Below, piece by piece: positions 1,142 through 61,403 of a stretch of DNA of 64,000 nt. This DNA is from Crossaster papposus. Lineage: Eukaryota; Echinodermata; Asteroidea; Velatida; Solasteridae. Where the stretch lies: contig JBAIAA010000876.1 of NCBI GenBank assembly GCA_037893245.1, forward strand, positions 124,001 through 188,000, read 5' to 3'. The stretch's first letter is position 1, and each line of letters begins with the position of its first letter. The notes under the pieces were generated by a model, which was not told where the DNA came from, made no database searches, and saw nothing but the letters and a program-made list of their open reading frames with translations. A program made the translations under genes and the position numbers.

Positions 1142-2340
1142 ACGATGTAGCCTTTAAACAAGGCCACATGTCTGATAGACGCCGAGTGACTAAAAAGAGA
1201 CTAATCGCGAAAACCTGAGTGAACTTCACGGCGTGCGTGCAGCATGCGATCCGCGTACGTAAATAAATGTACAATGTACATTGTACACACTGCTCTTGTC
1301 AAAGCCTGCAAATCGAGCACTTTCGTGTGATTACACACTCACAGACCGAGGACCTTCAACATACCGAGGACGTCCTCGATTTGTTATTAGGTCAAAAATG
1401 GCATCTCCTTGGCGATTTATAATTATTGTCAAAATTTCAACGGATTTGGAATATGTTCTCGGTTCGTCATAATGCCAACGTGCAGTGTGTTGTATCATGG
1501 AGCATTTTGTGTTCATCCGAACAAGTCAACTTGTAATAGCGCCACCTAGCGGCCAGATTATCGTCTCCTAGGCGCTAGGGACGCGTTAATCGCGTCTTCA
1601 TGTAATTTGGGGAAAGCGTCATGTTCATCGGCTCAAGTTCAGACCTACAGAAAGTGCCCTAATGTTATGGTACGTACATTATAATTAACAAATATGTTTA
1701 AAACTGTTCTCGTGTACAATTTACATAGGATATTGAAGGAAATAGTAATCGGGTATTGTTGAAATAATTAATTTCACATGTGGAATTCTTTTCACATCAA
1801 TCGTCAGCTTTCTCACAACCATTACAGTATGTTCCACCATACCTCCATGGTTCCACATGCCCAACCAAACCCAAAAACATTAACATAATAAATCCACCCA
1901 ATTAAGAAATATTCGGTTATACTAAAAAATCATAGATAGACACATATTTATGTGCATTTATTTTTCTCAACTGAAATTGGGCATGACATAAAAAAGTGAA
2001 AGGTTATAATTTGGGTCATCAACAGTCGTATCCCGAATCAAATCGATTACAAGTACATGTAAAGTTGTCCCCTCACAAATGAAGTCGTCCACTACGTCAA
2101 GTCGTCCACTATCAAATTTTCCGAATTTCCCATGACCAGGTGGGCCCCTCGTCAAGTTGTCACCCAAGCAAAAGACAACAAATTAAAAACAAATTTTGCC
2201 TTTTTCATTAATTAATATTTTAAAACAATGATATTAATAATCACTTTTCATATTGTTTATTTTATGCATTTAGTTTAACTTTTCTACATAAATTTACATA
2301 ATGTACATTTTGAATGAGTTTTTAGTATCGTCAGACCCCC
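1142..2340. other. Intergenic, nothing recognised
   Basis: AT-rich sequence without a convincing coding frame, RNA gene or complete element. Short open frames here have no recognisable motifs. Confidence 0.5.
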
Positions 2341-4182
2341 TAAATCTGCGCGGTCCTATTTCTGCGCACTCGCCTTTAATTTCAATTTGGCAACGCGCGC
2401 ATCTTAAAAATGATGTACTGTCACTAGGATCGTATTCTTTGATGCATGAACTTTCACAACCACCGAAAAATTATAGTGAATGCTTTAACGGTAAGTCGGG
2501 CAAAAATTGAAAAAAAATCTGATTTTTACAGCTAATTTACTAGGTACAATTGTTGGTAGAGGCTTTCGGGCCTGCAGAAGTCGAAAAGATGACCGCACGG
2601 TAAACTCTGTTATTCGCCCTCTGTCGTCAGTATTATAGCTACCGTGTCCTATATAATTCATTAATTTTGTTAAGGGGGTTTAAGACTTGCGGTGCAACAA
2701 AGAAGACATGTTTCTTATATTATTTTGGAATTTTCTTCTGTCATACCTATTAAAATCTGACATCTTGACAATGTTCTCTGTTGATTGGGATGATCAATAT
2801 ATGACATACATTCATCAAGATAATTCAGGTTACCAAATCTAAGAAGGGGTCAATTTATTAAGGCATTTAAATATTATTAGGTTTATTTGTATTTTTATTT
2901 AATTCAGGCCTAATCAACAACTGAGTTTATTGATGCACCCTTCTAAAAACTCAGCGAACCAATTGCTACTTGAAATGAACAATACAACGCACAACTTGGT
3001 CCTGGGTGTACCTTGTATAAACCATTATCACCAAGATTATTAATATTAGAACGAGAGGCTTGGAACGTCTGAGGTGACGATTTGTAATATTGTAAAACTA
3101 ATTTGTATTGCCTAAAGAACATAAAAAGCCAATTTAGTATGAATTCAGAGCACGGCAGTCTTTAGTTTAGTTTGACTGAGAGTATGATTCGTGAACACTC
3201 GTGTAGAGCTAATCCTACTATATTTAAAGTAACAAAAATTGAATTAATTATTTTAATATGAATGTACATTTCCAACTTTATTAATACATTTCTTCAATGA
3301 TAACAATACAAACTGGGGTCTACATTAAATAGGTAAAAATGTATAAATTGGATGTGAATTTTAAATATATGCCTTTTTGTAAAAAAAAATTAACAATTAT
3401 CTATTGAGAATTAAACCATTATGGCGAATTAATCTTGAAATTACGAAAAGTGTACTGGCATTGAAAAAAAGAAGTAAATAATTAGGTTAAAAATGTTCAA
3501 GCTAATATATTTTCCAAAATCAAGGAGTAAAAAATGTTGTTCTTAAGTTGCATGACCCGGACACCGTAGATTTTCCATGAAGCGCCCCACTGCGCAGATT
3601 TAGGCAGGATTTGTTTCTGAACGCCAAAACTGCACGCTTTGGAATTCCCCGCTTGTCGCTACAAATAAAGAAAATTTGTCTTTGTTAATCCGCATAGTGG
3701 AAGATCGTAAGCCAACAATATAAGTTTTGTTGATGAAAAGAGTGGTTGCTCTTTTAGTTTTAAAGGTAGTATACACCATTGGTAATTGCTTGAATTATCA
3801 TGAATGGGTAGATTTGGGGGGTTGTATTTCATAGTAAATATCGTTTAACTGACTTTTCCGAAGTTTTACAATCATGGATGCCGAGAAAAGCACGAAAAAA
3901 CAGCGTTTGTTTTCAACCGGTGTCGAGCAGTTATTCTTATGTTATCTTTGTTTTTTCGCTCTCGCCGTTCTTTATAAAATTCATTTTTTTGGAATAATTA
4001 CAGGATATCCAGCGCAATCCTTTTGCGGAATGCCTAAAATCATTATTTACTTTCAATTGAGTAAGGTATTTCTTAATAATTAAGTAGTAAATATTTTCGA
4101 TTTCTGCAAATGGTGTATACTACCTTTAAGATACTCGGTTGCAAACCCTTATGTGCGCAGAAATAGGAAGATCGAGGATTTA
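2341..4182. mobile_element. Possible 1.8-kb inverted-repeat element
   Basis: TAAATCTGCGC followed by CCTATTTCTGCGCAC at 2341-2369 is mirrored by GTGCGCAGAAATAGG with a further ATTTA at 4153-4182. A third related motif, TGCGCAGATTTA, lies at 3591-3602. The interior is AT-rich and non-coding and hosts the TTAA MITE copy 2. No target duplication was identified, so this stays tentative. Confidence 0.3.
3764..4125. mobile_element. TTAA-flanked MITE, copy 2
   Basis: A 362-bp copy of the family at 710-1084 in opposite orientation. Its ends are AGGTAGTATACACC and GGTGTATACTACCT, and it is flanked by TTAA at 3760-3763 and 4126-4129. The subterminal 'attgcttgaattatcatgaatg' type sequence is shared with the other two copies. 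Confidence 0.8.
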
Positions 4183-4858
4183 TGCAAATGTAGTTATTTA
4201 TTAATTCTAAATAAATTGAACAGTTAATGCCCAATTTAAAATTTTTGTAAATGCAAGTTTATTTAATGCCCCCCCCCCCCCCCTCCCCCCCCCCCCCTTC
4301 ACGGGGTCACTCGAATACTACATGTCCGTCCGCCGGGAGGATGTGGAATCGCTAATCGCGTTGCAAAATAGACCACCTAAGGCTAATTGAACCAGGGCAG
4401 TATCCATTTAATTTTATTGACTTTTACATCTATTGCTGGGAACAGACAAAAAAAAAAGTTTGTTTAATATTTGAAAGCTGTAAACGCTTTTAATAAACGT
4501 GATATATCATGTAATATGTCCCCCATTGTCTATTAATTATTACAAATTGGCTTATTCGCGCATTTCATAGTAGCAAGGCATGTGTTATATAGCTCATAAA
4601 ATTTTTTTGGGGGTAACCAAAGAACCACAAATATTGTTTTTAAATGCGTCTCCGCAACACTTTAAGCCAACCCCTGACCAAAAACCAAATTTGTTATTTT
4701 GGGGGGGGAACTTAGGCTTAAATACTAAATAAAGCAGCTTCCTAAGCAATAAGGATGAATAGCAATCAGTCTTGAAATGTTTAACGAGTCCAACATGTAC
4801 TTACTGAACCTGATTACAATAAGTATGGTTGCATTTCTCTTTGCAGGTGGCCCCTTAG
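4183..4858. other. Poly-C tract and non-coding sequence
   Basis: It holds a C homopolymer at 4269-4297 interrupted by one T. A pyrimidine-rich stretch then leads into two possible splice acceptors ('ctctttgcag' ending at 4846 and 'ccccttag' ending at 4858) in front of the recombinase gene. Confidence 0.5.
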
Positions 4859-5432
4859 TATATCATCATTTGTGACTGTGTTGAAGTTCTTCAGAGAGGG
4901 TTTACATATGAGAGTTTGTTCACCAATAGCAGTTCCCATGGCCTTTACAGTTTGAATCCTATTATGGCAGACCTTGGACACAGTGCTTGCAGCAGCACTT
5001 CCCTCTGTCCGTCCAGTTGTAACGATGCTCCAGTTCATACGGATGCCAGTGATTCTGATTGCGTTTCTCACGTCCGTTTGGATGACACATTGAATACTGC
5101 AAATGAACCGTTGAGTGTACGATCTCGCATCCCGTCGCCCATCAGAGACTTGACAGATGAGTGTAACATCACAGTTATGCAGACTAGTAATGAAAGTGGT
5201 CAAAGAAAATGGGACAAAAAAAACTTTTGCTTTTACTGTGATGAACCACAGGCCAAATTACCCCGTCATCTCGCGTCTTTGCATAAGGAAGAAACCGAAA
5301 TAGTGCAGATATCGTCCGAAAACAACAATTTGATCCGCAATAAATTTCTGTTAAAAATCCGCAATGCTGGTAATCACAGACACAATTGCCAAGTAATTCG
5401 CCAAGGTCACGGTGTGCTTATAGTAGCATATA
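4859..5432 (+). CDS. Crypton-like tyrosine recombinase gene, N-terminal segment
   Basis: The frame is open from 4859, just after an in-frame TAG at 4856-4858. An acceptor AG at 4857-4858 could open an exon here; alternatively translation starts at the ATG at 4964. The N-terminal part is Ser/Asp-rich and low in structure. It is followed by a zinc-finger-like block (FCFYC ... RHLASLH, about 5222-5295) and a 'GNHRHN' motif that commonly precedes recombinase domains in multicopy invertebrate Crypton-like genes (family knowledge, from memory). The frame is cut after 5432 by a 721-bp TA-flanked insertion. Removing the insertion with one TA copy brings the downstream 6156 frame into register. Whether upstream exons exist is unknown. 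The recombinase assignment rests mainly on the next segment. Confidence 0.6.
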
Positions 5433-6153
5433 GGGTAGGTGCAGGTAATATGGGCCCATTAAGCTCATTTGCATAATTTGCATAAAGATAGATAAAATCA
5501 TTCTAAAGAAACATTGGTTATTGGAATCAGTAACAACTACCCTTCCTTTTGATGATATAATTTAAACCATGTTGTATCCATTTATGACAGTTACATTCAA
5601 ATTATGACGTCATCACCAAAGGTCCCATATTACCTGCAGTGCAGGTAATATGGGACGTATGGTAATTTGTATATGACAATATAATTTTCAAATGCAATTT
5701 CATTCCGCTCTATGACATCTATCGCGTCCCATATTACCTGCACCTTGTTGCGCTCCCGGAGCTCCCATTAAATGCATAATAAATCCTAAAACAATTATAC
5801 ACAGGACCCCACACCTTCAATACAATCAAAACACTTCATAAGCATCCTAAATATGTCAAGAATTCAGCTCACCCTCTGGTCAGTTTTTAATATCAGTACA
5901 TTCCATGAAATATCTATTTTTAGATCAGAGCAAAAAAATACTGTCAACTTAACATACATTGTCAAATTTTGCTTATTTCTTCACCGAGATCTCCGTTCCC
6001 GAACAAATCAGCCATGTTGGCAGCGATGGCAATGAGTTATCGCAACTATTGAGAGCGCTATTTCTTGTCTTTGAAGCTTTATAGTTAAATAGGCGCCGAA
6101 TTTAATTCATGCGTCCCATATTACCTGCAGTCCCATATTACCTGCACGTACCC
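5433..6153. mobile_element. 721-bp TA-flanked non-autonomous DNA element inside the recombinase gene
   Basis: The terminal inverted repeats are 22 bp, starting GGGTAGGTGCAGG at 5433 and ending CCTGCACGTACCC at 6153, with one mismatch. TA flanks both sides (5431-5432 and 6154-6155). The core GCAGGTAATATGGG recurs inside as a perfect palindrome near 5625-5657, once near 5731-5745 and again near 6112-6130, so this is an element with repeated terminal motifs. It carries no transposase frame. TA duplication is typical of Tc1/mariner-type transposition. Excision of exactly this interval restores the host frame, which argues for insertion rather than an intron. Confidence 0.85.
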
Positions 6154-6155
6154 TA

Positions 6156-7601
6156 GACCGAATCATCCCGTAAATGCAGATGCATATGGACCGTGCATGT
6201 ATTGCTTTGGCTATTATGTGCGAACTGATCTTTGGAGACATCGTTGCTTACTAAATCCAGCGCTCTCTGCCCATGATAAAGGTGTTCGTGTACGTGGCCG
6301 AGTTGCTCACAAGAGTGATTTATTGAAACCGCCTCCTCCGGGTGTGTCCTTTGAGCTGAACAAGATTCTCTGCCCGATGAAGAAAGATCAGGTTGCCTTG
6401 ATAGCCAAGACCGACTCGTTGGTTATTGAGTTCGCCAAACGTGAATTCCTAAAAATGGGCCATGATGTAGATCAACACGGATATATCCGAAACAAATTGC
6501 GTGAATTAGGTCGCCTCATCTTACAACTCAGGAAGAATACTGTGCAACCAAATGCATCGCTCGAGCTGTTTGTGCATCCCCGGCATGTCATTACCATAAT
6601 TAACGCTGTCCATGACATTGCTGGCTTTGACAAACGCAAACAATTGTATAGTGTTCCATCATTGGCACTAAAGATAGGACATTCCATAAAAAAGTGTGCC
6701 CTGGTGGTGAAAGGCAATGCTCTAGAGCATGGCCTGAAGCAGAAAGCTGATGACGCAGAACAGTTTTTGGAGTTATGCAATTTGAAGTGGCGAGACCATG
6801 TATCTGTCCATGCACACCGAACATTGTACCAAGAAAAGCGGAACAAGAATACAGTTCTCCCAACCAATGCAGATGTTGTTAAGATGTCGTCCTTCCTTAA
6901 AGAAGCTGCCAACCAGCAAGTGCAAATTCTGGAAGATGCGTCTGGTGATGGAATCAAGCTTGCATGGAAGTGTTTGAATGAAGTGACGCTGTGCCATCTC
7001 ATAATGTTCAATCGCAGGCGACAAGGGGAGGTGTCAAAGATGCAATTACACGATTTTCACAAGCGGACCACAGCACAAATTGATGGGGGCTGTGTCTTGA
7101 GTGATTTGGAACGGCATTTATGCAAAATGTTCACAGTTGTTGAAATAGTGGGTAAGAAGGGCCGGACTGTACCAGTGCTGCTGTGTACTGATGCAGTGAC
7201 ATGGTTGGGTGCACTTGTAGCCAAGAGAATTGAAGCTGGAGTAGCGGCAGAGAACCCTTACTTGTTTGCGCGCTGTTATGGAGGCTTGGGCCACATACGA
7301 GGAAGTGACCAGCTCCGATCCTATGCTGACATTGTGGGCCTAGATAATCCTACAAGCATCCGGTCTACTAAGCTTCGTAAGCATGTAGCAACTGCATCAC
7401 AAATATTATCATTGAAGGAGCATCAGCTGGAGACATTAGCAAACTTCATGGGTCACGACTTGCGAATACACCGTGAATACTACCAGCTACCAGACACTGT
7501 GCAGAGGGTAACACAATTGTCAAGACTGTTCCTCAGCTTAGAGAGGGGCAACTTGCCTTCCCAGGAGGGCAGGTCCTTGAACGAATTGGATGTATTGGGA
7601 G
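6156..7601 (+). CDS. Crypton-like tyrosine recombinase gene, catalytic segment
   Basis: The segment continues the 4859 frame after the insertion. It opens with a second zinc-binding-like block (CMYCFGYY ... DLWRHRC, 6191-6247), then an alpha-helical region. The putative catalytic core follows: Arg in FNRRRQGE (about 7006-7030), TKLRKHVAT (about 7366-7392) in the place of the usual HxLRH box, and MGHD ... HREYY (7448-7483), with the last tyrosines as the candidate nucleophile. This order (R, LR, GH, Y) is that of tyrosine recombinases, and Cryptons are the eukaryotic transposons that use them. The first His of the HxxR box appears to be Thr, so activity is uncertain. The exon ends at 7601 before a clean GTAAGT donor; reading on without splicing gives an unlikely product. 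Other possibility: a host gene domesticated from a Crypton. Confidence 0.65.
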
Positions 7602-7726
7602 GTAAGTACAATTTAAATGGATCTGTGCATGAGGTACACATGCCGATGACTGTTTGTAAGTTGACCTGGATTCATATGCATTTAGACAATAGTGTTTTCT
7701 ATGTGGTTTTTTCCCAATCACTTCAG
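7602..7726 (+). other. Intron of the recombinase gene
   Basis: Donor GTAAGT at 7602 and acceptor TCACTTCAG ending at 7726. It is 125 bp long and phase 1. Splicing shifts the downstream repeat into an acidic Ser/Asp/Gly frame that connects to the last exon. Confidence 0.65.
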
Positions 7727-7930
7727 AAGGCTTCACGAGTGACAGCAGCGATGGCAGTGACGATGGCAGTGACACCCGCAGTGATGGTAACATCGGTGAT
7801 GTCAACGACACCCGCAGTGATGGTAACATCGGTGATGTCAACGACACCCGCAGTGATGGTAACATCGGTGATGTCAACGACACCCGCGGTGATGGTAACA
7901 TCGGTGATGTCAGCGACACCTGTGGCAGCA
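7727..7930 (+). CDS. Recombinase gene, acidic-repeat exon
   Basis: In the spliced frame this exon encodes a Ser/Asp/Gly-rich linker followed by four 12-residue repeats of the type TRSDGNIGDVND, encoded by a 36-bp minisatellite at 7774-7917. It ends at 7930 before a GTAAGT donor, leaving one base that pairs with the next exon in phase. The unspliced frame instead reads a Met/Val/Thr repeat and stops at 7939. The matching phases at both junctions favour the acidic reading. A flexible acidic linker between the recombinase core and the C-terminal domain is a plausible role, by inference. Confidence 0.6.
7774..7917 (+). repeat. Coding 36-bp minisatellite (4 units)
   Basis: Four 36-bp units start at 7774, 7810, 7846 and 7882, nearly identical. 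The length is a multiple of three, so copy-number change would preserve the frame and only lengthen the protein repeat. Confidence 0.9.
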
Positions 7931-8041
7931 GTAAGTTGAAATGTTTTATCAGTGTGTCACAATGTCAGGCGGTCATTGTATGTGTTAAAACTACTGATGA
8001 ATTCGAGTGTCTAAAGCTGTAATGTATGTGTTGTATTACAG

Positions 8042-8283
8042 TACAGGTTCAAGCAAACAAGGCATCAGTCACGGTGAGGCATCGGCGGATAACGGCGACA
8101 CGTCGTAGTTGGACGGAAGAGGAGAGAAGAGACGTCATGGAAAGTCTGCACAGATTCTTTGTTCTGAAGAAAATTCCTGGTAAGCGTGATATTGAAAGAT
8201 CATGTACCATAGCACTGCAGAGTCGATCATGGAAGAACATCAAAGACTTTTGCCGCAACACACTTATTCGAGAACAACGATAA
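8042..8283 (+). CDS. Recombinase gene, C-terminal Myb/SANT-like exon
   Basis: The acceptor is 'tattacag' ending at 8041; joining to 7930 is in phase and the stop is TAA at 8281-8283. It encodes a basic stretch and then RRSWTEEERRDVME ... KKIPGKRDIE ... RSWKNIKDFCRN. The spaced Trp residues and 'PGK' turn resemble the Myb/SANT-like C-terminal domain found in many invertebrate genes of this type (recalled family pattern, not searched). It probably binds DNA. The short open frame upstream of the acceptor is intron read-through. Confidence 0.6.
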
Positions 8284-8755
8284 GTGGCTATCTTTAACCA
8301 CTCCACGCCGGTGGACGTGTACACACGCAGCAATTGTCCGCACCCGAGGAAATAATTCACTCGTGTTAGAAAGCATTTGTGAATGTATTTGGGCTGAAAT
8401 GGCAAACGCACCTTGATAATAAGCAAAATAGAGAATTATGTGTATGGCGTCCTCACATTGATATGATCATGTACCTCCAGAAAAATGTCCCCTATTGGAT
8501 AGACTGCTCAATAGGTCCTCCATGTGATGGTCTGCACATGTATGCATGTACATGTACACACACATGGATATGTACATGCAAGATGCCATGCAAGCAGTTA
8601 CGCACGCAGCAGATTTTGTTCAGACATGGCGAGTGAAGACGACAGTTCGGGGCAGGGGAGCGCATATTCCACAGAATCGGACGAAATATCCGCAGTATCA
8701 TCAGGTCCTACATCTGAACCTGCAGCAACACATCTGGCTGGCATTCTTCTTTTAA

Positions 8756-10950: not shown

Positions 10951-11086
10951 AGAAATCGGCTAACGGCGAGGAAATGTAACGAAATTCAATTTTGGAATTA
11001 GGAGCGTCCCGCTATAGTATGCACATGTACATGTACTGTACATACAATACATACCGCGCAACCGTTTGCACATCCATCAGCGCTGT

Positions 11087-11614
11087 ACCGCACCGCACCG
11101 CACCGCACCGCACCGCACCGCACCGCACCGCACCGCACCGCACCGCACCGCACCGCACCGCACCGCACCGCACCGCACCGCACCGCACCGCACCGCACCG
11201 CACCGCACCGCACCGCACCGCACCGCACCGCACCGCACCGCACCGCACCGCACCGCACCGCACCGCACCGCACCGCACCGCACCGCACCGCACCGCACCG
11301 CACCGCACCGCACCGCACCGCACCGCACCGCACCGCACCGCACCGCACCGCACCGCACCGCACCGCACCGCACCGCACCGCACCGCACCGCACCGCACCG
11401 CACCGCACCGCACCGCACCGCACCGCACCGCACCGCACCGCACCGCACCGCACCGCACCGCACCGCACCGCACCGCACCGCACCGCACCGCACCGCACCG
11501 CACCGCACCGCACCGCACCGCACCGCACCGCACCGCACCGCACCGCACCGCACCGCACCGCACCGCACCGCACCGCACCGCACCGCACCGCACCGCACCG
11601 CACCGCACCGCACC
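11087..11614. repeat. Perfect (ACCGC)n pentanucleotide array, about 105 units
   Basis: About 527 bp of uninterrupted ACCGC repeats with no visible variant unit. A period of five makes every frame open, so the long frames read here on both strands are artefacts. The minus strand is (GCGGT)n, with a GG pair every five bases. Confidence 0.98.
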
Positions 11615-12871
11615 GACCGACCTCTAAGCCTGGACATTTCATTGGCTCACAGAGTGACGTCGATCCGTCCCGAATCGAAAGCTCCCTAATGGGTCTATAT
11701 GGATGACGGCGACGATCCTTCTGCCAATGGCAGCCTTACTGAAGCTTTGGATATGGTAAAGACATGCCAACAGCTCATCAAGTTGCCCGACAGATCTCCT
11801 CATGGCTGCACTCAATACCGTCAAAGAGCGTGTCGCCGACAACTGGCTGAAGACTCCGCCAAGAGAGAACAGTTTTGTTAATATGCAATTCGTAAGTCAT
11901 CAGGCTAATTTATCACCGGATGATTCACACCCATCACAGCAGTTTACCCCCCAGGTTTGATTGTACCAGCACACTCCGTAAATTTAAACGGAATTCTTCA
12001 CCTATGATCTCGATTATTGCAAATCGAGTATCACTTGATTAGTGCATGCATATACTAAACTTGGTCCCCAAGAAAAAACATTTGTTTTCCAATTTGTAAC
12101 ACGTCAGGCTGATTTGTAGCTTTGCATTATCGGTCGATTGAGTACCAAATGACATATTGAATTGTGTTGAAAAATAATTTGGCAATCGAACAAGACTGTT
12201 TAGTACATTTAGTCTATGAACTCTATTCTATAAGGTAGATATTGGAAAATAAATAAATTTTCTGACTTAGAAACGTAGGAAGAAAATGTCATTTCTTTTC
12301 GTTATCGAACGACAGATGGGCTCAATAGAGCCGTTACATAACGTTTTCGTTACCCCAACGCACTTAGCTTATAAAAGCGGACATTGCATTCAAATTCAAT
12401 GCCTTTCTTCTCGGTCTGAGCATTCGAACCGCACTTGCCCTCCCGCCCGACTTATAACTTAAAGCCCATAATAGTAATAACGGTACATGTATTACTAATA
12501 ATTGTAACTAACTGCAGGGAACAGGGAGTGCACCCTTGATCGGTGTCCTAGGATGCAACCACGTTTCCTCTTAAAAATAAGGTTTTGTTCGTGGCCTCCG
12601 AGTGCCAGCAAAAATGCAGGACTGTGGCACCGTTCGCCCTGCCTCATTCACTTTCTATATCGAGACAATTTCCTGCATATTAGGCTAATCTAAGCTGCCG
12701 TGAATTTTTCTTTTTATCGACAAGAGAACAATTTTTCGCAGCCATTTTAGAGGCACTAGAGTGATCGAAGTCGTTTATCAGAAAAACATCGTTTTCATAC
12801 GCTTTTAGGCATTGTATTTTGCAAAGATTTTTGCCTCTTATTCCTTCCAAACTCTCGGCATTTAGGTCCTA
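11615..12871. other. Intergenic, nothing firmly recognised
   Basis: A short frame at 11699-11881 looks somewhat coding-like but has no recognised motif. A TATAAAAG sequence lies near 12370. Neither can be assigned to a gene. Confidence 0.4.
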
Positions 12872-13928
12872 CAGGGTGGTCAAAAAAAAACTATACCCAA
12901 CTTTGGAGGCCATTTTCTCCTAGATGATAAAATATTTTAGTAATTTGGTTTGCATATTATTAAAGTATATATCGTTGAGCATTATTGGTGAAAATAGGGA
13001 AGATATTACATTAATATTTTTGGAGATATTCCTATTTTTAGCGAGTATGTGTAAAAATTGCTTTTCCACGGGAGTTAATAATTCACATTATATGCCACAA
13101 TAATGTAATGACGCGATAGTCTTTTGACAAATGTTTTTGCGAGAGCTTCTTTTATTTACACTAAAATTGATAAATAATACTTTTTGATAGATAGGCTTCT
13201 GGTTTTGTTCATTTCAGTTAGTTCAACAAATGATATAATTTCATGTATCTGGAACATCAATAGACAATTGTCATGATTTTTTGCACATAATATCGTCATT
13301 GCATAAGTTAACAATTTTAGTCTGCAATTATGCATTGTCGCAAATAGAGTAAGCATTTATTTATATTTTAAATTCACATTGTTTGTAAATAAGGTATATT
13401 TATTCATGATTTTAATCTCACAAACATTTTTCTTACTTGGTTAGACTGCCAAAGAATTTGCGCAGGAACAGACTTTAACTTATGCAATGACGATATTATG
13501 TGTAAAAAATCATGACAATTGTCTATTGATGTTCCAGATACATGAAATTATATCATTTGTTGAACTAACTGAAATGAACAAAACCAGAAGCCTATCTATT
13601 AAAAAGTATTATTTATCCATTTTAGTGTAAATAAAAGAAGCTCTCGCAAAAACATTTGTCAAAGGACTATCGCGTCATTACATTATTGTGTCATATCATA
13701 TTCAAACATGTTGATGCATTGACAGCTCCCGTGGAAAAGCCATTTGTACACATACTCGCTAAAAATAGGAATATCTCCAAACATATTAATGTAATATCTT
13801 CCCTATTTTCACCAATAATGCTCAACGATATATGCTTTAATAATATGCAAACCAAATTACTAAAATATTTTATCATCTAGGAGAAAATGGCCTCCAAAGT
13901 TGGGTATAGTTTTTTTTGGATCACCCTG
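12872..13928. mobile_element. 1.06-kb foldback element (CAGGGTG ends, TA-flanked)
   Basis: The left arm (12872 to about 13308) is an imperfect reverse complement of the right arm (about 13483-13928), with a loop of about 170 bp. The ends are CAGGGTGGTC and GATCACCCTG, flanked by TA. The palindrome produces mirrored short frames on opposite strands, none with transposase motifs. Ends and TA duplication fit a non-autonomous Tc1/mariner-type element. Confidence 0.85.
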
Positions 13929-14055: not shown

Positions 14056-15043
14056 CAGGGTGTGTCACAAAAATGTCCCACTTTGAAAAATTGCCTTAAA
14101 ATTAATATTCTATATTTTTTTGAAAATCCACAATGGTTCAGTGCTTTTGTTGTGCAATTGCACGTACTCAACATGCCACGCATAAGTGAGCACAGGCTAA
14201 TTACGTAAATTGAGATACATCTGTTTTGCGCAAAAAAGTGCTGGGTTGAAAACAGGATCTGAGACCATGAGAAACAACGTTAGGTATGTCCTTTGTCTAT
14301 CACAAATTGCCATTACTTCTGAATTGACCCTTTCACACTTTCAGTTCTCAACTTGTCCACCATTTCTTTTCTGGCAGATTTCGGCCCTTCTCATCATCAG
14401 CATATCTTACACTGCACGCCGGATCAAAGCTCTGTCCCGTCTGAGAACATTGACGTCTGCCGTTATGCGTTCCTCAACAACTGAGGGCAGGTCCGTACAT
14501 TTCAGTTAAACTGAAATGTGTCAAGGGATGTGCTGAGTTCAAGAAAGTGCAAACACCTGGTGTTGCACCATTCTGGGGACATCCATTCATTGATTAAATA
14601 ACATGACATAACACAATTGAGTGCACTTGGCCTGCTATCTTGGCACGTCTCCTAACCTCATTGACTTGAATTAACCCTTAGAAAGCTGATAGCAGGCAAG
14701 TAGCAAGTAAATGCTTACGACAGCAAAGAAATAGTAGCCACCTGGAGAGCAAAGGGTTAGGGCAATTTCCTAAAAAACGTTGGGGACCCTTAAGGGCATA
14801 CCTAACGTTGTTTCTCATGGTCTCAGATCCTGTTTTTAACCCAGCACCTTTCCGCGAAAAACAGATGTTTCGCAATTTAATTAGCCTTGCTCACTTATGC
14901 GTGACATGTTGAGTACGTGCAATTGAGCACAAAAAGCACTGAACCATTGTCTATCAACCTATGTAAAACGATCCGCTAAAAAATTATAGAATATTAACTT
15001 TAGGGCAATTTTCAAAGTGGGACATTTATTTGTATACACCCTG
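14056..15043. mobile_element. 0.99-kb foldback element (CAGGGTG ends, TA-flanked)
   Basis: The ends are CAGGGTGTGTCAC at 14056 and TACACCCTG at 15043, flanked by TA (14054-14055 and 15044-15045). Arms of roughly 240 bp are inverted copies; both contain the 'ggatctgagaccatgagaaac' type sequence. It lies 125 bp from the previous foldback and has the same outer seven bases but unrelated arms, so it is a second family using the same end signature. Confidence 0.85.
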
Positions 15044-18200: not shown

Positions 18201-19973
18201 TCAAATTATAATGTTTAACTTGATGACAAGCGCCTCGCCTGCAGCCAGAGAGATTCCGCTCATACCCTGGGGGTTTCCGTTGCGATCCATGTTGCTGCTG
18301 ACTTCAATGACCCCAGTGTCATCCTCGGCTTTCAACTCTAACTTCATTAGGGCTGCGGTGTAATCCTCAGTAGACTCGGAGGTACCAGCGTTGATGATGA
18401 CTAGGAAGGAATCAAGGCCCGGTGTATCAGGCATGCGGAGGAAAGAGAAGATCTTGTCGTTCACGATGACGTACTTGAGGTGGTTGGTTTGGAAGGCAGG
18501 CTCGTCTTTCCGAAGTGCTGCTAGCTTCTTGTAGAGTGCCAACGCGGAGGTGTTGTCTGCCTTTTGGTCAGCAACGTTGACTCCTGAGAGGTAGTTCTGG
18601 TTGACAGGAAGCCATGTTTTCCCGGAGGTGCTGCTGAAGCCGGCATGGGATGACCTGTCCCACTGCATCGGGGAACGCTCAGGGTCTCGTGTGTACTCTT
18701 TCCAGTGGTTCGGATTGTTTTTGGCAAATGGATCCCGACTTTCGTTATATGAGACCCAGATGTCCCCCATAGCTATCTCGTCGCCGTAATATGTCTTGGG
18801 AGTTCCAGGGAGAAGCAGCTGAATAATGGTTAATGCCCGAGTGTAGTTGGCCCCTATACGATGAGGGATGCGAAAATTGTCGTGGTTACAGATGATCCAG
18901 TTTGGCCATTTATCAGACGGTAGGTCTTTCATCCAGTCGTTGACCAGTTGGTGTATTTTTGTCCCAGAGAGGTTCCACCTCTTAAGTTGAGTCAATGCAT
19001 AGTTGAAGGGGAAGTCTGCTTCAGGACGTTCTAGGGTTCCGTAGTACGGGAGAAGTGCTTTGTGAGTATCGTAAGTCTCCGTTGCCATGAAACGGTAGTT
19101 TGATTCCTTGCTGTATTTACCCAACACTGATCGCCACGCGTACAATAATTCATGTATCTCCGGGAGATCGGACGTCTTGTTGTGGATAAGGCTGTGATAC
19201 TGGGGTCGCTCGTCTGGTATTGGCGTGTAGTCTGGATTGATTGGTTCGTCCTCCAAGTCTTCGCTTTCGTAAATGTGTCTGACTGCATCAATACGAATAC
19301 CGTCTACGCCTTTTTCGAGCCAGAATTGTAGAACATCTATTATCTCCAGCTGAACTGCGGGATCACGGTGATTCAGATCTGGCTGCTTTTTAAGGAATTG
19401 GTGCAGGTAGAACTGCTGTCTCTCTGGTACCCACTCCCATACCGTACCGCCCAGCAGACCCACCCAGTTATTTGGAATGCATTCCTCAGGAGGATCAGAA
19501 CAATTCTTCTTCGCGTCTACCCAAACATAGTAATCTTTGTATCGGTTGGTGCTGTCTTTGTTTTTCTTGCTCTCTATAAACCACTGGTGCTCATCGCTGG
19601 TGTGGTTGGGGACAAAATCCATCACGAGTTTAAGGCCAAGCCGGTGTGCCTTACTGATCAGCTCATCAAAGTCAGCCATGCTACCGAATGTGGGATCGAT
19701 ATCTTTGAAATCGGCCACATCGTAGCCAAAGTCGACCATGGGCGACTTGTAGACGGGATTTAACCATAAGGTACCTACCCCAATGTCGTTGAAGTACTCC
19801 AGGCGGGACGTGATACCAACGAGGTCCCCTACACCATCACCGTCCGAGTCCATGAAGGAACGCGGGTAGATCTGGTACACGATCGTACTCTTCCACCATT
19901 CATCCCATCTAAATCCAACAGCTGTGTTTGGTAGAAACACGAACAGGAGAAAAACGCGCATGGCCGCCATCAT
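18201..19973 (-). CDS. Alpha-glucosidase (maltase-like), GH13 family, copy A
   Basis: An intronless frame of about 590 residues. It hydrolyses terminal alpha-1,4-linked glucose, by family. A Met pair at 19973/19970 followed by a hydrophobic stretch (residues 1-20) is a signal peptide and aligns with the start of copy B; the frame extends 20 codons upstream to 20033 without hydrophobic character. Visible motifs are WWKSTIVYQIYPRSF near the N terminus, a calcium-type DSDGDGVGD loop, catalytic Asp in GIRIDAVRH (about 229), Glu in ATETY (about 299), and the stabilising Asp in CNHD (about 365). All three acids are present. It resembles insect-type maltases and the SLC3A1 ectodomain; the long cytosolic N terminus of SLC3 proteins is absent, so a secreted enzyme is favoured. 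It is divergent to copy B at 20555. Outer thirds are near-identical to copy B and the middle is much more divergent. Confidence 0.92.
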   Translation of the reverse strand: MMAAMRVFLLFVFLPNTAVGFRWDEWWKSTIVYQIYPRSFMDSDGDGVGDLVGITSRLEYFNDIGVGTLWLNPVYKSPMVDFGYDVADFKDIDPTFGSMADFDELISKAHRLGLKLVMDFVPNHTSDEHQWFIESKKNKDSTNRYKDYYVWVDAKKNCSDPPEECIPNNWVGLLGGTVWEWVPERQQFYLHQFLKKQPDLNHRDPAVQLEIIDVLQFWLEKGVDGIRIDAVRHIYESEDLEDEPINPDYTPIPDERPQYHSLIHNKTSDLPEIHELLYAWRSVLGKYSKESNYRFMATETYDTHKALLPYYGTLERPEADFPFNYALTQLKRWNLSGTKIHQLVNDWMKDLPSDKWPNWIICNHDNFRIPHRIGANYTRALTIIQLLLPGTPKTYYGDEIAMGDIWVSYNESRDPFAKNNPNHWKEYTRDPERSPMQWDRSSHAGFSSTSGKTWLPVNQNYLSGVNVADQKADNTSALALYKKLAALRKDEPAFQTNHLKYVIVNDKIFSFLRMPDTPGLDSFLVIINAGTSESTEDYTAALMKLELKAEDDTGVIEVSSNMDRNGNPQGMSGISLAAGEALVIKLNIII

Positions 19974-20554
19974 GACTTTTCGTTTAAAATAACTGTCGAA
20001 GCTTGTGGTATATACGTGTATTTTATGTTTCAATACCGCCGTAGGGGTATTCGCTGACCGTTATTTATCATGATCAGCCACGTTATTAAGCACATGCGCA
20101 TAAGCTGGGCGCAGCAGGCCCTATAGGTCGCTCTAGACGCTAGGTGTCTTGATTTGTAGGCAATCGTCTGGCAAATTCATTGAGCAGTTTTGGAAGTATC
20201 AACAACAGGTTGACTGCCAATATTCTTTACGCCCGCACAATTCACTTCTACGAAACCCGAGAAGTGTATTGAAGACGATCACGTTCTCCCATTTGATATA
20301 TTTTCATCGTGTTCTATGATGTGAAGGATCAGTTGCACTCGCGTGCGTTGTGCTGAAACAATAACCTGGCTACCCAAAATAAACATCCGTTGTTCACATT
20401 GCAAGACACAAAGGGTTTAGTTGCCAGTGGCCCGTGTCGTATAGGGTTATCAACTGCATTGCAACAAATATATGTATATATACACGTACACACATGTATA
20501 TACCAGCAGAGGGTACTATACTGCACTGGCTGTTATTTTCGGCCAAACTTCAAC
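19974..20554. promoter_or_regulatory. Shared intergenic region between two divergent maltase genes
   Basis: 581 bp separate the two start codons. On the minus strand an AT-rich 'cataaaatacacgtatatacc' type stretch lies about 30-60 bp before copy A. On the plus strand 'atatatgtatatatacac' lies about 65-90 bp before copy B. Both are possible TATA-like elements; neither is proven. The arrangement would allow co-regulation. Confidence 0.45.
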
Positions 20555-22318
20555 ATGGAAGCTATGCGCACTGTTCTTCTCATCGTGTTAATACCGAACT
20601 TGGCAGAAGGATTTACATGGGATGAATGGTGGAAGGGTACTATCGTGTACCAAATCTACCCGCGTTCCTTCATGGACTCGGACGGAGATGGCGTGGGGGA
20701 TCTAGATGGTATCACGTCCCGCCTGGAGTACTTCAACGACATCGGGGTAGGCACCGTATGGCTGAGCCCGGTGTACAAGTCGCCCATGGCCGACTTGGGC
20801 TACGATGTGGCCGATTTCAAAGCTATCGATCCCATATTCGGTACCATGGCTGACTTTGATGAGCTGATCAGTAAGGCACACCGGCTTGGCCTTAAACTCG
20901 TGATGGATTTTGTCCCCAACCACACCAGCGATCAGCACCAGTGGTTTATAGAGAGCAAGAAAAACAAAGACAGCACCAACCGATACAAAGATTACTATGT
21001 TTGGGTAGACCCGAAGAAGAATTGTTCTGATCCTCCTGAGGAATGCATTCCAAATAACTGGGTGGGTCTGCTGGGCGGTACGGTATGGGAGTGGATACCA
21101 GAAAGACAGCAGTTCTATCTGCATCAGTTTCTTAACATTCAGCCAGATCTCAACTATCGTAACCCCGCCGTGCATTTGGAGATGATCAACGTCCTGCGAT
21201 TCTGGCTGGAGAAAGGCGTAGATGGCTTCCGTGTAGACGCAATCAGACACATGTATGAAAGCGAAGGCCTGGAGGATGAACCAACCAACCCCGATTATTC
21301 GTCTATACAGAGTAAACAGGCCGGTTATGACAGTCTTGTTCACACCAAGACGTTTGATATGCCGGAAGTGCACGACCTTATCTACGAATGGCGAAGCGTC
21401 TTAAATGAATACAGCATGGAACCAAAATACCGGTTCCTGACACTGGAAACTAATGACACTCACAAGACACTTCTCCCGTACTACGGAACTCCGAGTCGTC
21501 CTGAGTCAGATTTTCCTTTCAATTTTGGACTTACTGCACTCAACATAAAGAAACTCAGCGGGACCACAGTTCATCAGCTGGTCAATGCATGGATGGTGGA
21601 CCTACCGCATGATGGATGGCCGAACTGGGTGATTGGTAATCATGACTGTTCTCGTATCGCTGATCGAGTGGGAATCAAATACGCACGAGCTTTAAACGTC
21701 TTGAATCTGCTTCTTCCAGGAACCCCTAAAACCTACTACGGAGAAGAGATATGTATGATGAATACTTGGGTCCCACTCAACAAATCCCAGGATCCTTATG
21801 CAGGCTTAGAAGCTAGCCACTGGAAGGACGGACGAGATCAAGAACGTTCTCCAATGCAATGGGACAGATCGTCGCATGCCGGCTTCAGTACCACTCCCGG
21901 GGATACATGGCTTCCGACCAACCAGAACTACCTCTCAGGAGTCAACATTGCTGACCAAAATGCAGACAACACATCTGCGTTGGCACTCTACAAGAAGCTA
22001 GCAGAACTCCGGAAAGACGAGCCTGCCTTCCAAACCAACTACCTCAAGTACGTCATCGTGAACGACAAGATCTTCTCTTTCCTTCGTATGCCTGATACAC
22101 CAGGCCTTGATTCCTTCCTAGTCATCATCAACGCTGGTACCTCTGAGTCTACTGATGACTACTCTGCAGCTTTGATGGAAAGTCACCAGTTGAAGATTGA
22201 AGGAAACATCGGGATCATCACGATCAGCAGTAACATGGATCAAGAGAGAGTGTCTCGAGATATGAGCAAGGTCTCTGTCGCAATAGGCGAAGCACTTGTT
22301 ATCAAAGTCTCTTTATAG
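20555..22318 (+). CDS. Alpha-glucosidase (maltase-like), GH13 family, copy B
   Basis: An intronless frame of 587 residues ending with TAG at 22316-22318. The start chosen is the ATG at 20555 (MEAMRTVLLIVLIPNLAEG), which gives a signal peptide; the open frame upstream to 20390 is repeat-like and unlike the paralogue. Motifs: YQIYPRSF, DSDGDGVGD (calcium loop, 41-49), Asp228 in GFRVDAIRH, Glu298 in TLETND and Asp364 in GNHDCSR, the full GH13 catalytic set. The C-terminal beta domain runs to the end and no membrane anchor is obvious. Predicted role: a secreted or lumenal maltase. Differences from copy A concentrate in residues 235-450, which line the active site in this family, so substrate preference may differ (inference). 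Confidence 0.92.
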   Translation: MEAMRTVLLIVLIPNLAEGFTWDEWWKGTIVYQIYPRSFMDSDGDGVGDLDGITSRLEYFNDIGVGTVWLSPVYKSPMADLGYDVADFKAIDPIFGTMADFDELISKAHRLGLKLVMDFVPNHTSDQHQWFIESKKNKDSTNRYKDYYVWVDPKKNCSDPPEECIPNNWVGLLGGTVWEWIPERQQFYLHQFLNIQPDLNYRNPAVHLEMINVLRFWLEKGVDGFRVDAIRHMYESEGLEDEPTNPDYSSIQSKQAGYDSLVHTKTFDMPEVHDLIYEWRSVLNEYSMEPKYRFLTLETNDTHKTLLPYYGTPSRPESDFPFNFGLTALNIKKLSGTTVHQLVNAWMVDLPHDGWPNWVIGNHDCSRIADRVGIKYARALNVLNLLLPGTPKTYYGEEICMMNTWVPLNKSQDPYAGLEASHWKDGRDQERSPMQWDRSSHAGFSTTPGDTWLPTNQNYLSGVNIADQNADNTSALALYKKLAELRKDEPAFQTNYLKYVIVNDKIFSFLRMPDTPGLDSFLVIINAGTSESTDDYSAALMESHQLKIEGNIGIITISSNMDQERVSRDMSKVSVAIGEALVIKVSL

Positions 22319-38826: not shown

Positions 38827-39202
38827 CAATAAGCCATTTAAATAACATCTGGTACACTGACTTGTTCACACAGCTTGGCACAGTTTAACTTTAAATTCTC
38901 CAGACCAAAGACACTGTTGCTATATCACGTGATTCGAGGCAAGCTTTTGCATAGTTACGTAAGAGACGCTCAGCACCAATACATTGTTTACAATGGGTAA
39001 GAATGGCAAAAAGACACCAGACCATTCCAAAGCTGGGGGTTGCTAGCGTATGACGCGTAAGGCTTGCCCCGAATCACGTGATATAGCAACAGCGTCTTTG
39101 GTCTGGATAATTTAAAGTTAAACTGTGCCAAGCTGTGTGAGCAAGTCAGTGTACCAGATGTTATTCAAATTTAACTCGGGGTCACGCGCAAATGGCTTAT
39201 TG
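38827..39202. mobile_element. 376-bp palindromic MITE (CAATAAGCC ends)
   Basis: Left 'CAATAAGCCATTT ... ctggtacactgacttg ... agcttggcacagttt' is mirrored on the right, with arms of roughly 120-150 bp. 'atatcacgtgattcg' is also mirrored. Target duplication was not resolved. Confidence 0.75.
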
Positions 39203-41316: not shown

Positions 41317-44300
41317 TTGGTTGCAAGGCGTGCGTAGGCTGCCGATGCGGGCGCCCTTTAACATACGCTACAGACCACGCCATGACGTTCAATTAGTGTT
41401 CATGCGTTTTGCACGTACGTAAGACGGTCATTAAGCTCTTGGCCAATAAAAAGATCTGCTTTGCAGGCTCCACCCCAAGCGTCACTCCCCTCGACTGTCC
41501 ACGTCCTTAGAATTCCACAATGAGCCCCGTCTGCCATTGTTCGTTTTATTTCACTCCGTTGATTTGCAACGGTCGTGAAGAAGACAATGCAACTCTATAC
41601 TTCATCGAGTTGTTCACGGCTCGGAGGTTATAGGACTCTTTATGGCGATAGTGCAGGCCCGTACGGTACGCAGGGGGGTGCGACGGGTGCGTAAGCACCA
41701 CCCCCACCCTCCGGGAACACAATGGTTCCCGACCGGGAACACAAAGGTCAACACAATTTCTCTGCCACAAATCGTGCTTCATAATGGTGTTCTTGGTGAA
41801 CACCTGCAGTTGAGTTACTCCCTTTTATATGAAAGTTTTACCTTTCTAAAGACGAGTTGTATTTTCAGGAGACATCGACCTACGTACGCCAAGTGATTAT
41901 TATTTACATAGACCATTATGAAGCACGATATGTGGCAGAGAAACCTTCCCTCTTTTGTGTTGACCATTGCGTTCCCGGATTCTCAGGAATTCTGTTTAGG
42001 TTTCAAGGGTGGGTTAGGTAACAATAGTGTTGAGTGTGTATAGGGTATAGGGATAAGAGGGGGTTAGTCCAGGCAAAATACATAATTTTGTTTTGTTAAC
42101 CTCAAACAAATTGCAACAAATTGTTTTTCACCACAGTGCACTTCTATAAGGTCCCTAGAATGACATACTAAAAATCTACAAAAATCCAAGTGGTGGAAAT
42201 ATGTCTAATTTGCATAAATCGTTAATCCCTGCCATGTAATATTTTGTATTCCCATATTTGGGTATATATTTTATTTTTATTTTTTGAAAAGTTTATTTTG
42301 GTGATTATACTTACATATCCTTACTTGAATAACATTTGCTAAAGCATATAAGTGACTGAATAATTATGAGAACACAGTAATTATCCAAAATGACAACTTT
42401 GTGACTCTATAAATGTGCGCACATTACACTGTCTCCAGATATCATCATGTAGTCAGTATTGGTGAGCTTCAAATTCACCAAGTTGCTTACTGGCACAGTT
42501 ATCATATTAAAAACTTATGGAAAATCATATGGACAATGATAACATTGTGATATTTAGCCCAGCAAACAAAAACTTGAAAAAAATGATGTGTCCCTAAATT
42601 GGGCTAACAAGTAGGTGAAGGGTTGCCTAAGGTGAGAGACTTGAACAAGTTCAAGGAAACCCCCCAAATTTAAGATTTGTGTTGCTTACAATAATCATAT
42701 CTACGTTAAAATGTATTTTGGGGATTTCCTTGAACTTGTTCAAGTATTCCATGTTAGGCAACCCTTTAACTACTTTTTAGCCCAATTTATAGACACACCA
42801 TTTTCCCCCAGTTTTTGTTTTCTGGGCTAAATATCACAATGTTATTATTGTTCATATGATTTTTCATAAGGTTTTAGTATACACGACGTATCATTTGAAA
42901 AGACTCACAATCCTTTTGGTACGTCTTTTACTTTACATTTGTATACACGACGTATCATTTGAAAACACTCACAATCCTTTAGGTGCGTCTTTTACTTTAC
43001 ATTTGTATACACGACGTATCATTTGAAAAGACTCACAATCCTTTAGGTGCGTCTTTTGGCTAATTATACACAATGGCTAATTATTATATCCTAAAGTTGC
43101 GCGCATTTACCTTGTTTCCATACAATGTATATCATCAAGTAGTCTTGCCAAACTTCAGTCTTGATGAGCTTTAAAATCACCAAGTATTAAACCCTTATGG
43201 AAAATCATATGAACAATGATAACATTTTGATATTTAGCCCAGCAAACAAAAACAGGCAAAAATGAGATGGCTGTAAATTGGAATAAAATGTCGGTGAAGG
43301 GTTGCCTAACGTGGGAGACTTAAACAAGTTCAAGGAAATCCCCCAAATAGGAGTATTATTGCTTATAATTATGTCAACGTCAAATGGTTTCTTACACATA
43401 ATTTTAGTGATTTCCTTGAACTTTTCACCACTTTTAGCCCAATTTACGGACACCAAATTTTTTCCATTTTTGTTTGCTGGGCTAAATATTACAATGTTAT
43501 CATTGTTCATATGATTTTCCATAGGGTTTTAATATGGTAACTGTGCCAGTATGCAACTTGGTGAATTTGAAGCTTATCAATACTGAGGTTTGGCAAGACT
43601 ACTTGATGATAACCGGAGACAAGGTAAATGCGCGCAACTTAAGGGTATGATTTTTAGCCCTTTCGATTGTTACTATGTTCTCATGATTATTCAGTCAATT
43701 ATATGCTTTACAAAATGTTATTGAAGTAAGGGAACTGTAAGTAAAATCACAAAAATAAATTTTGCAAAAAAAATTAAAAAATATATATATAGGCCTATCT
43801 ATCTAAATATGGGAACAAATATATTACACGACAGGTATTAAAGATTTATGCAAGTTAGGCATATTTCCACTAAAAATCCAGCCTGGTGACCATCATTTTC
43901 GGATTCAGCACCCCAAAATAGCTATATTACAAACTTCTACTCAAAAGATGCCTCTTCTTGCCCTAGATGAGACCCTTTTTTTTTAATATCGCCTAGACTA
44001 TAATAGTTCTTATTGCCGGACAACCATTGAAGTAATAGAAGGCAGTGTGTTGTTAATCCCCATTGTTGCAAATCCACGAGTAAAAGGAAATTGAACAATC
44101 GGCTACCGAACTCGTTGTGAAATTCTATAGACGTCGACGGTCGGATAGGGTTGGAGTTCGGGGCGGAGTCAGCAAAGCAGAGCTTTTCATTGGCCAATAG
44201 CTTAATCACCGTCTTACGTACGTGCAAAACGCATGAACACTAATAGGATGTCTTGGCTAACTGACAATCGCTCAAAAATGTATGAGCAGAATTGTGATGC

Positions 44301-54720: not shown

Positions 54721-54822
54721 ATTGATGCAATCAATGCAGTTAAAAAAAAAATAACCATAGTATTATATACATCAAAAGGCGTACGCAATACGATGCTTTT
54801 TTATAATATTCATTAAATCTAA

Positions 54823-55536
54823 AGGCCCTGTCACACCTTTGCGTATATCAAGTACTTATGATTTCCTTATTAAAAAATGTCAATACGCAGCCGTACGCTC
54901 AAAATTTCAAAATGTTTCGATTACTTTGACTTATATGCGACGCACACCTAGCGTATAAGTAACGAATTCAGCGCATCCATGGCGTATGAGGTGCGTATGA
55001 GTTGCGTATGCAGTGCGCAACACTATTTTACTCTTGCGAATAGCTGCGTATGCAGTGCGCATGCCGAGCGTATTCCAGACGCACCCTACTTATCCCGACC
55101 GCATGCCTGACGCACTTCCGACGAATGCCGAGCGTATTTCCGTCGCATGTCCCCCGCTCGCCACGCGTTATAAAATGGCGGCGGCTTCCCGCTGTTGTCA
55201 GTACCAGTGCAGATTCCATAGCGTGAACATCAGCGTATTACCGCGTATGAACCGCTTATCCCCCACGAACACATAGCGTACTTGTACCGCGCTCGACCGA
55301 TGCGGGACCGATGCGCTGCGTATTTATAACTTATGACCTGCGTAACAGCGTACGCTGCGTAGTTTTGTGCTTGCCCAAAACTATCCGGCGTACTGGGCCG
55401 TACTGTGCGCATGCCTACGTACATAAAACTTACACAAAACGATTGAGATGCATATGAGGTGCATATTGTGCGTATGAAAAAAATGTCAATGCGCAACTCT
55501 TAAGGAATTAGGATACGCAAAAGTGTGACAGGGCCC
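54823..55536. mobile_element. AGGCCCTGTCACAC element, copy 1
   Basis: A 714-bp copy with ends AGGCCCTGTCACACC and GTGTGACAGGGCCC, flanked by TAA (54820-54822 and 55537-55539). The interior is rich in GCGTATGA-type motifs. The TAA duplication would fit a PIF/Harbinger-type element. Confidence 0.75.
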
Positions 55537-55539
55537 TAA

Positions 55540-55939
55540 AGGCCCTGTCACACTTATAAGTTATAAATACGCAGCGCATCGGTCCCGCATCGGTCGAGCG
55601 CGGTACAAGTACGCTATGTGTTCGTGGGGGATAAGCGGTTCATACGCGGTAATACGCTGATGTTCACGCTATGGAATCTGCACTGGTACTGACAACAGCG
55701 GGAAGCCGCCGCCTTTTTATAACGCGTGGCGAGCGGCGGACATGCGACGGAAATACGCAACTCATACGCACCTCATACGCCATGGATGCGCTGAATTCGT
55801 TACTTATACGCTAGGTGTGCGTCGCATATAAGTCAAAGTAATCGAAACATTTTGAAATTTTGAGCGTACGGCTGCGTATTGAATTTTTTTAACAAGGAAC
55901 TCATAAGTACTTGATATACGCAAAGGTGTGACAGGGCCT
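55540..55939. mobile_element. AGGCCCTGTCACAC element, copy 2 (opposite orientation)
   Basis: About 400 bp, reverse complement of copy 1 with an internal deletion. It abuts copy 1 with only TAA between. Ends AGGCCCTGTCACACT and GGTGTGACAGGGCCT. Together the two make an inverted repeat of about 1.1 kb. Confidence 0.75.
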
Positions 55940-56217
55940 TTACATTGATTACGTAACAATTCGGTGGAAAATGTTCTGATTTGTCGAAAGTATATGTCCA
56001 CCCATAAACGTGAACACAGTTAATAATAGCAGTATAATTTGTGCCATAAACCTGTGAATTTACACCCGGGCATATCCACTAGGTACCCACACGTGACATG
56101 GGTTAGTGGTGGCTGGCACCGGGGCAGGCACTAGGATCCGTCGTGATGGCTAATCAAACGGTATCTTAATGTAACATGTATACACGTAAGCTTACGCACC
56201 ATTGGTTGTACAGTGCC

Positions 56218-60291: not shown

Positions 60292-60715
60292 GCCTGAGTG
60301 GGCGCGCGTGCGTTCTTTCACAAACCCCTGGCCATGAATAATGTAAACGACGCTGACTGGCTATGCAGTGCGTACTTCGCGCGTATTTCGAAAACTGCAC
60401 GCCCACTTGTAATGCGCTCGCGCGTTCCTGAACGTCACGTCATGTACAAAACATTTTTTCAAGACTGCGCAATACCTGTACAACATGGATTTTGGAAGCC
60501 TCGTTTTTTCGCCCCAAAACGTATACGTTGTAGAGGGTTGACAGAGGTACGTACATTTAATATAAATCCTTCCTAAATAACGCGACGTCGAAATGCAATG
60601 TTTAAAAGGATTGATTCTACAAAATAACAATTACAACATGTTAAACATGGCGTCCCGCGTTGAACTTATAGACTGCAGCTCTAATTTCAAATGTGCCAAT
60701 AGATGGCACATTTAA
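60292..60715. repeat. Dispersed repeat, continuous copy
   Basis: Unites the two parts seen at 45985-46163 and 50668-50857, with only about 50 bp between. It ends at the TTAA where the third MITE starts. Confidence 0.65.
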
Positions 60716-61104: not shown

Positions 61105-61403
61105 TTAAATGAGACAATTCCAGAGATTAAAAGATGCGCGTTTCTGCTAAACCGAACGTCACAATGATGAGTTCCAAGGTACGTTTGTTCTCTGTAATTA
61201 GTTAACCAGTTGGAAAGTTATGATTACCTGTATAAATTCTTTCTCATCACAAAACAATATGGGGGTGGGGTGGGGGTGAACAAATGGAGCATCACGCATT
61301 CAACTTAAAATGGAGGCGGGAAGATATCATCCCCTGTGATTTACACCCGCGGTTGGTTTATTCTTTTTTAAATGAGAGCAGCGAGGCTTCAAAGCAACTG
61401 GAG

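Follow-up and report, generated by a model that had tools for sequence, protein, structure and literature searches.

A short DNA element that targets TA has almost certainly been pasted, recently, into the recombinase-like gene of a young multicopy mobile element, here designated Y. This nested transposon lies in the window, i.e. the whole 64,000-nucleotide stretch analyzed (genome G000, 1.02 Gb; contig C876, positions 124001-188000). The genome was classed as eukaryotic on account of its size, its repeat content and frames resembling retrotransposons. The inserted element, a 721-bp non-autonomous DNA element delimited by its genome copies and the ORF list, occupies positions 5433..6153 on the + strand. 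The nesting itself is ordinary, and nested transposons inside Crypton copies are already on record in Table 2 of Kojima and Jurka 2011 (PMC3212892); this one is a recent and clear-cut case, resolved to the base and controlled by the 29 empty sites tested. The insertion matters mainly because it led to host element Y, which is notable for its exact ends, for being present in many nearly identical copies and for joining, always through 8 bases, a module with replication-type genes, designated R. Chains of Y and R, for which a putative mechanism can be drawn up, are the real lead rather than the nested insertion.

The 721-bp insert and its target gene

The insert is bounded by 22-bp terminal inverted repeats at 5433..5454 (+) and 6132..6153 (-), and by the dinucleotide TA at 5431..5432 and 6154..6155; the left TA corresponds to the single TA found in 29 of 29 uninterrupted loci, with which the right one was also recognized by comparison. 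The repeats match at 21 of 22 positions, and the arms including TA (5431-5454 and 6132-6155) are complementary at 23 of 24, in line with the 22-bp inverted termini and the TA on both sides claimed in the original prediction. As a control, 30 first-order Markov windows were searched with a 7-base seed for TA-anchored 24-mer pairs having at most 1 mismatch and lying 300-1200 bp apart; none was found in them, and the real window contained the insert pair and several others. The end motif also recurs inside the insert, back to back at 5622..5654 (GTCCCATATTACCTGCA plus its complement; repeat families D1 and D2, inverted pairs I2 and I5), with additional copies at 5726-5744, 6113-6131 and 6130-6148. 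According to the ORF list, no frame of 100 aa or longer is located fully within the 721 bp.

Forty of 197 candidate copies in the genome were scored, window copy included, and showed identities of 97-100% across 704 or more of the 721 bases. TA followed by the 22-bp end had 145 exact matches in the genome (71 forward and 74 reverse), versus 0 for the reversed control pattern. Flanks were read at 21 of the 40 scored loci, the window included; 18 of these are independent, because L072, L074, L075 and L078 represent one duplicated site. TA was present on the left side in 21/21 and on the right side in 17/21, being absent there from L063, L069, L072 and L076, so that further copies with TA duplications, which the original prediction had proposed to look for, do exist. 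At thresholds of E 1e-20 and more than 150 bp, the flanks of these loci were unrelated, the one exception being a 215-bp stretch that L060 shares with L071. Mean pairwise identity of the 21 copies was 99.1%; the window copy differed from the column majority by 1 substitution over 721 bp, and those at L059 and L060 were equal to it.

Like MITEs of the Tc1/mariner type, the insert possesses a TA duplication, short inverted ends, no long frame and dozens of near-identical copies; unlike them, its ends begin with GGGT, its end motif is repeated internally, and no autonomous partner was identified. Tc1 ends begin with CAGT. Judged by coordinates alone, at least three end-to-end pairs of greater length occur in the genome, on contigs C356 (1204209-1205711; 1.5 kb), C561 (1428933-1430840; 1.9 kb) and C509 (106675-110907; 4.2 kb), and none of the 150 DDE_3 matches listed of 818 candidates fell inside them. 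A transposase or autonomous partner, looked for via these end pairs and the listed DDE_3 matches, was not found, and the insert can therefore be called Tc1/mariner-like by its target and ends only. We consider it a non-autonomous TA-target element whose inverted ends suggest a transposase of this type. It was also observed that 148 of the 150 listed DDE_3 matches (818 candidates), many with identical scores, lie on contig C8 (at least 5.3 Mb), which is a contig packed with one Tc1-like element.

The insert splits a recombinase open frame into a 5′ part (4859..5432, +), with a zinc-finger motif at approximately 5228-5284, and a 3′ part (6155..7609, +), the latter identified from the protein P0001, Pfam, genome matches and motifs in the uninterrupted copy L012. 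As predicted, the frame is open on either side, from 4859 to 5476 on the left and from 6089 to 7939 on the right. The 3′ part contains a zinc-finger motif (about 6194-6247) followed by RQGEV (about 7019-7033), TKLR (about 7367-7378) and GHDLRIHREYY (about 7451-7483), which may be read as the catalytic recombinase boxes (R..R..H..Y), and a splice-donor-like GGTAAGT is located near 7602. Taking out the 721 bp together with one TA removes 723 bp, a multiple of 3, and thus preserves the frame; the zinc-finger-like motifs flanking the insert (CxxC..H..H on the left, CxxC..HxC on the right) are thereby joined, as had been predicted, and both are found in one frame in L012.

A Pfam scan of P0001 (485 aa) up to E 1 gave only a sub-threshold match to PF00589 Phage_integrase (E 0.0014; 18.9 bits versus a cut-off of 27.1) and no match to DUF3504. 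Four other frames (109-194 aa) overlapping the 3′ part had no Pfam match below E 0.4. Solved structures offered no convincing relative of P0001, and its AlphaFold model, built with no alignment, had a mean pLDDT of 35 and was unusable. NCBIfam and PHROGs yielded nothing useful for P0001 or for P0002 and P0003 of module R, and a search of viral contigs with the recombinase and the SF3-like protein (P0002) confirmed no relatives of these two.

P0001 had 30 further genome matches with 99-100% amino acid identity across all 485 aa, in frames of 757-781 aa. The 5′ part (4900-5432) was 96-100% identical at 40 scored places and adjoins the P0001 matches. At 29 of 29 other loci tested (L010-L038), the gene was insert-free, with a joined 40-mer containing a single TA, and at a 30th, L053 on contig C476, the same was seen by alignment. 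In the 5 insert-free loci checked, coding DNA to the left and right of the insertion point was 99.4-99.6% identical to the window copy. This comparison covers near-identical copies, and more diverged or partly matched ones also occur, for example on C728 and C430; among the 30 recombinase loci compared, the insert is restricted to the window copy. Recombinase copies lacking the insertion, as sought by the original prediction, are therefore at hand, and they are uninterrupted copies at other loci. The prediction that either the gene had been dead only briefly or an intact allele exists was too narrow, because the gene belongs to a multicopy family.

Whether the insert might be an intron was considered, since GT and AG lie close to its exact ends. 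A GT-AG intron had been dismissed in the original prediction as giving the wrong frame; this holds for the exact-ends version (5435-6156), which disrupts the frame, but not for the pairs 5435-6130, 5439-6092 and 5445-6092, all of which keep it, and the argument was therefore incomplete. That the recombinase gene has here an old spliceosomal intron, conserved among homologues, is excluded by the empty sites: 0 of the 29 homologous loci tested share the insert. The same 721 bp are also present at 39 other scored places, and we see practically no chance for this explanation. An introner-like intron, in which the insert ends would provide the splice sites and the protein made from this gene copy might remain close to normal, appears improbable. 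Candidate donors are present at 5435 (AGG|GTAGGT) and 5445 (CAG|GTAATA), as is an acceptor (CCTGCAG) at 6130; the three GT-AG pairs above preserve the frame; and introners having TIRs and TSDs, or carrying splice sites and adding few residues, have been described (PMC9860276, accessible text). As with the introners covered by that text, the insert is a short non-autonomous element with TIRs and splice-site-like ends that lands in an exon; in contrast to them, it is known from DNA alone and in one gene copy only. However, the donor closest to the textbook form (CAG|GTAATA) combined with CCTGCAG breaks the frame, and because 29/29 other gene copies tested are without the insert, it could at most be a brand-new intron.

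The insert and the recombinase gene might also be regarded as one composite element moving together, by analogy with MarCry-1_FO, given as a Mariner-Crypton fusion in Fusarium in the part of PMC3212892 available to us. Both are mobile and one resides inside the other, but the insert was seen in the window copy of Y alone when 30 recombinase loci were compared, and at the 20 further insert loci that were read the flanks bear no relation to those of the window. The composite element was rejected on these grounds, its probability being negligible.

The insert copies, TA flanks and empty sites therefore argue that the insertion was recent and struck one copy of a multicopy element that is itself young, upholding the claim that a DNA transposon had recently landed inside another transposon-type gene. 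For such a nested insertion, a transposase supplied in trans would have pasted the 721-bp element into a TA of the zinc-finger part, duplicating the TA. Y was probably hit after reaching the window locus and not before. The window copy has presumably lost recombinase function, although its frame could be preserved if the RNA were spliced inside the insert.

The host element Y

The ends of Y were set by comparing two stretches of contig C792 (L079 and L080) with the window, and genome-wide markers were also used. In the window, Y spans 1293..8548 (+), i.e. 7,256 bp including an 8-bp core, or approximately 6.5 kb minus the insert and one TA. Its left end is CTCTTGTCAAAG (window 1293), and its right end is GCACATG followed by the core TATGCATG (8541..8548, +). 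The 8 bases preceding the left end, ACACACTG (1285..1292, +), have only the final TG in common with the right core. The right end was located at the identical base in 30 of the 30 loci read, with the core being TATGCATG in 25 copies, TATGCGTG in 4 and TATATATG in 1, and module R followed directly in 11 of the 30.

With up to 2 mismatches allowed, the Y markers detected 51 starts and 60 ends in the genome. Among 48 start-end pairs, 22 measured 6,455-6,554 bp, core excluded; the others were longer or shorter, including 7.8 kb on C443, 5.0-5.6 kb on C80, C395, C429 and C890, and a 24.6-kb pairing on C430. Exact TATGCGTG occupied the 8 bases before the start in 12 of 51 cases (11 beside R, plus the one on C728), a further 26/51 matched the 30-base pattern with 2-3 mismatches, and 13/51 were beyond the limit, the window being among the latter. 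The target of Y therefore looks loose. A Y standing between R modules has TATGCGTG on one side and TATGCATG on the other; in the window the two end 8-mers differ, with ACACACTG on the left and TATGCATG on the right. It was also noticed that C443 (65892-730944) contains seven elements with Y ends, each about 7.8 kb long and spaced approximately 87-120 kb apart, none being among the 88 recombinase protein matches listed; these are perhaps a gene-less derivative within a very large repeat.

Y has neither long terminal repeats nor TIRs, a single 9-bp match (E 0.26) being all that its first 300 bp share with its last 300, and no reverse transcriptase was found in it, the region 1293-4858 having only 12 frames of 60-76 aa. 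A dispersed element of approximately 385-390 bp, with ends near TTTAAAGGTAG, is situated inside Y at 3751..4136 and is absent from the copies read on C395 and C315; inverted or related copies of it occur at 705-1088 and 60711-61108.

Y resembles Cryptons in having a recombinase-type gene and neither long terminal repeats nor TIRs, and differs from them in having base-exact ends and an 8-bp core, and in the N-terminal zinc-finger motifs of its protein. As far as the accessible text of PMC3212892 goes, no terminal repeats were found in animal Cryptons and CryptonA-related genes carry DUF3504; unlike CryptonA, the Y recombinase had no match to this domain in the Pfam scan up to E 1. The designation Crypton-like, as used in the original prediction, is plausible for Y, and we do not call it a Crypton, the Phage_integrase match lying below the Pfam cut-off. 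Y presumably moves by recombinase-mediated circularization and integration, in which a circular intermediate would be involved.

Chains of Y and module R

Module R (5.55 kb) was found beside Y copies elsewhere in the genome, outside the window. Its Rep-like and SF3-helicase-like frames lie on the - strand of L079 (4999-5673 and 5884-6705), opposite to that of the Y gene. P0003 has an HxH motif and a weak Pfam match to REP_ORF2-G2P (E 0.0045), and P0002 has a P-loop and weakly matches Parvo_NS1 (E 0.0015), both matches being below the cut-off; by these signs, P0003 may tentatively be read as HUH-Rep-like and P0002 as SF3-helicase-like. Searches of solved structures returned nothing for P0003 and weak matches only for P0002, the best being a 'Replication-associated protein' (E 0.058). 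Neither the Rep-like nor the SF3-like protein had a match in the 64-kb window at E <= 0.1.

The R markers detected 37 starts and 15 ends in the genome, and the stretches of R units compared were 99.9% identical. When 0-12 bases were allowed between a module end and the next start, 27 junctions were mapped, all of exactly 8 bases: 12 Y-R, 11 R-Y, 4 R-R and 0 Y-Y. Reading of 23 of the 27 revealed TATGCATG at 11 Y-R junctions and TATGCGTG at 11 R-Y junctions and 1 R-R junction. Chained modules share one orientation. The largest array, on C792 (397540-489824; 92 kb), is YRYRRRYRYRRRYRY, i.e. Y R Y R R R Y R Y R R R Y R Y, in which one Y is 3.2 kb longer than the others. All six arrays for which the two ends were mapped (C153, C311, C362, C395, C792 and C848) start and finish with Y; after the last Y the flank was not module R in any of them, and the 8 bases before the first Y were seen in three of the six. 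Every mapped R end (15/15) leads into Y or R. Y boundaries had no adjoining mapped module at 48 of 60 ends and 40 of 51 starts. However, 21 of the 37 R starts were without an adjoining Y or R end by the markers used, which speaks against simple generality, and for R on C430 no end was mapped.

That R with mapped ends occurs only between module neighbors fits a circle composed of R(n)Y joining a resident Y. It is possible, although we would put slightly less than even weight on it, that Y and R form a two-module system in which rolling-circle replication by R makes R(n)Y circles that are inserted beside a resident Y, via the 8-bp cores or recombination over Y, giving chains of the form Y(R(n)Y)(m). 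In such a system, Y would integrate alone at loose sites, the R(n)Y circle would join a resident Y via the core or by homologous exchange across its 6.5 kb, and the runs of R-R would fit rolling-circle copies. Unequal crossing-over could instead enlarge the Y-R arrays without any circle step.

Tandem accretion is a feature of bacterial integrative elements. The Y and R modules are similar to bacterial integrons (PMC6431247, in the part accessible) and tandem integrative elements in that a short core marks each junction and successive units point the same way; they differ in residing in a eukaryotic genome, in being of two types and in lacking Y-Y junctions, and recombination between their cores is putative. 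If true, the two-module reading would place the chains beside tandem integrative elements as their equivalent in eukaryotes, with a replicon and a site-specific recombinase in one system. Cooperation between Y and R, if real, would also explain how such a recombinase element gains copies in a eukaryote: cutting out and reinserting do not by themselves increase its number, a problem that a partner replicating by rolling circle would directly solve. A search of titles and abstracts, covering few subscription papers and no bioRxiv, found no description of recombinase/Rep module chains in animals, which is weak evidence of novelty.

In addition, a recombinase relative with 75% identity was located near an R type carrying a 99-100% identical SF3-like gene, within approximately 6 kb, on contigs C1153, C447 and C745. 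This relative may be the neighbor of R on some contigs (e.g. C1153 and C745), and its position beside a 99-100% identical SF3-helicase-like type looks as if the modules re-assort. Among the 150 scored of 335 candidates, SF3-like copies from more distant families (57% and 73% identity) are also spaced regularly, at intervals of 5.2-5.6 or 11-12 kb, on some contigs such as C146, C863 and C80.

Other features of the window

Further TA-anchored inverted 24-mer structures were located at 12892-13908, 54820-55942, 42488-43611, 38843-39163, 14165-14915 and 19795-20730, the first two being long and having arms that match each other in many places. A long tandem repeat at 10980-11735 is open in several frames and translates as HRTAP repeats. 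Two divergent frames of 619 and 653 aa, at 18201-20060 (-) and 20357-22318 (+), respectively, are maltase-like (alpha-glucosidase) as named by eye.
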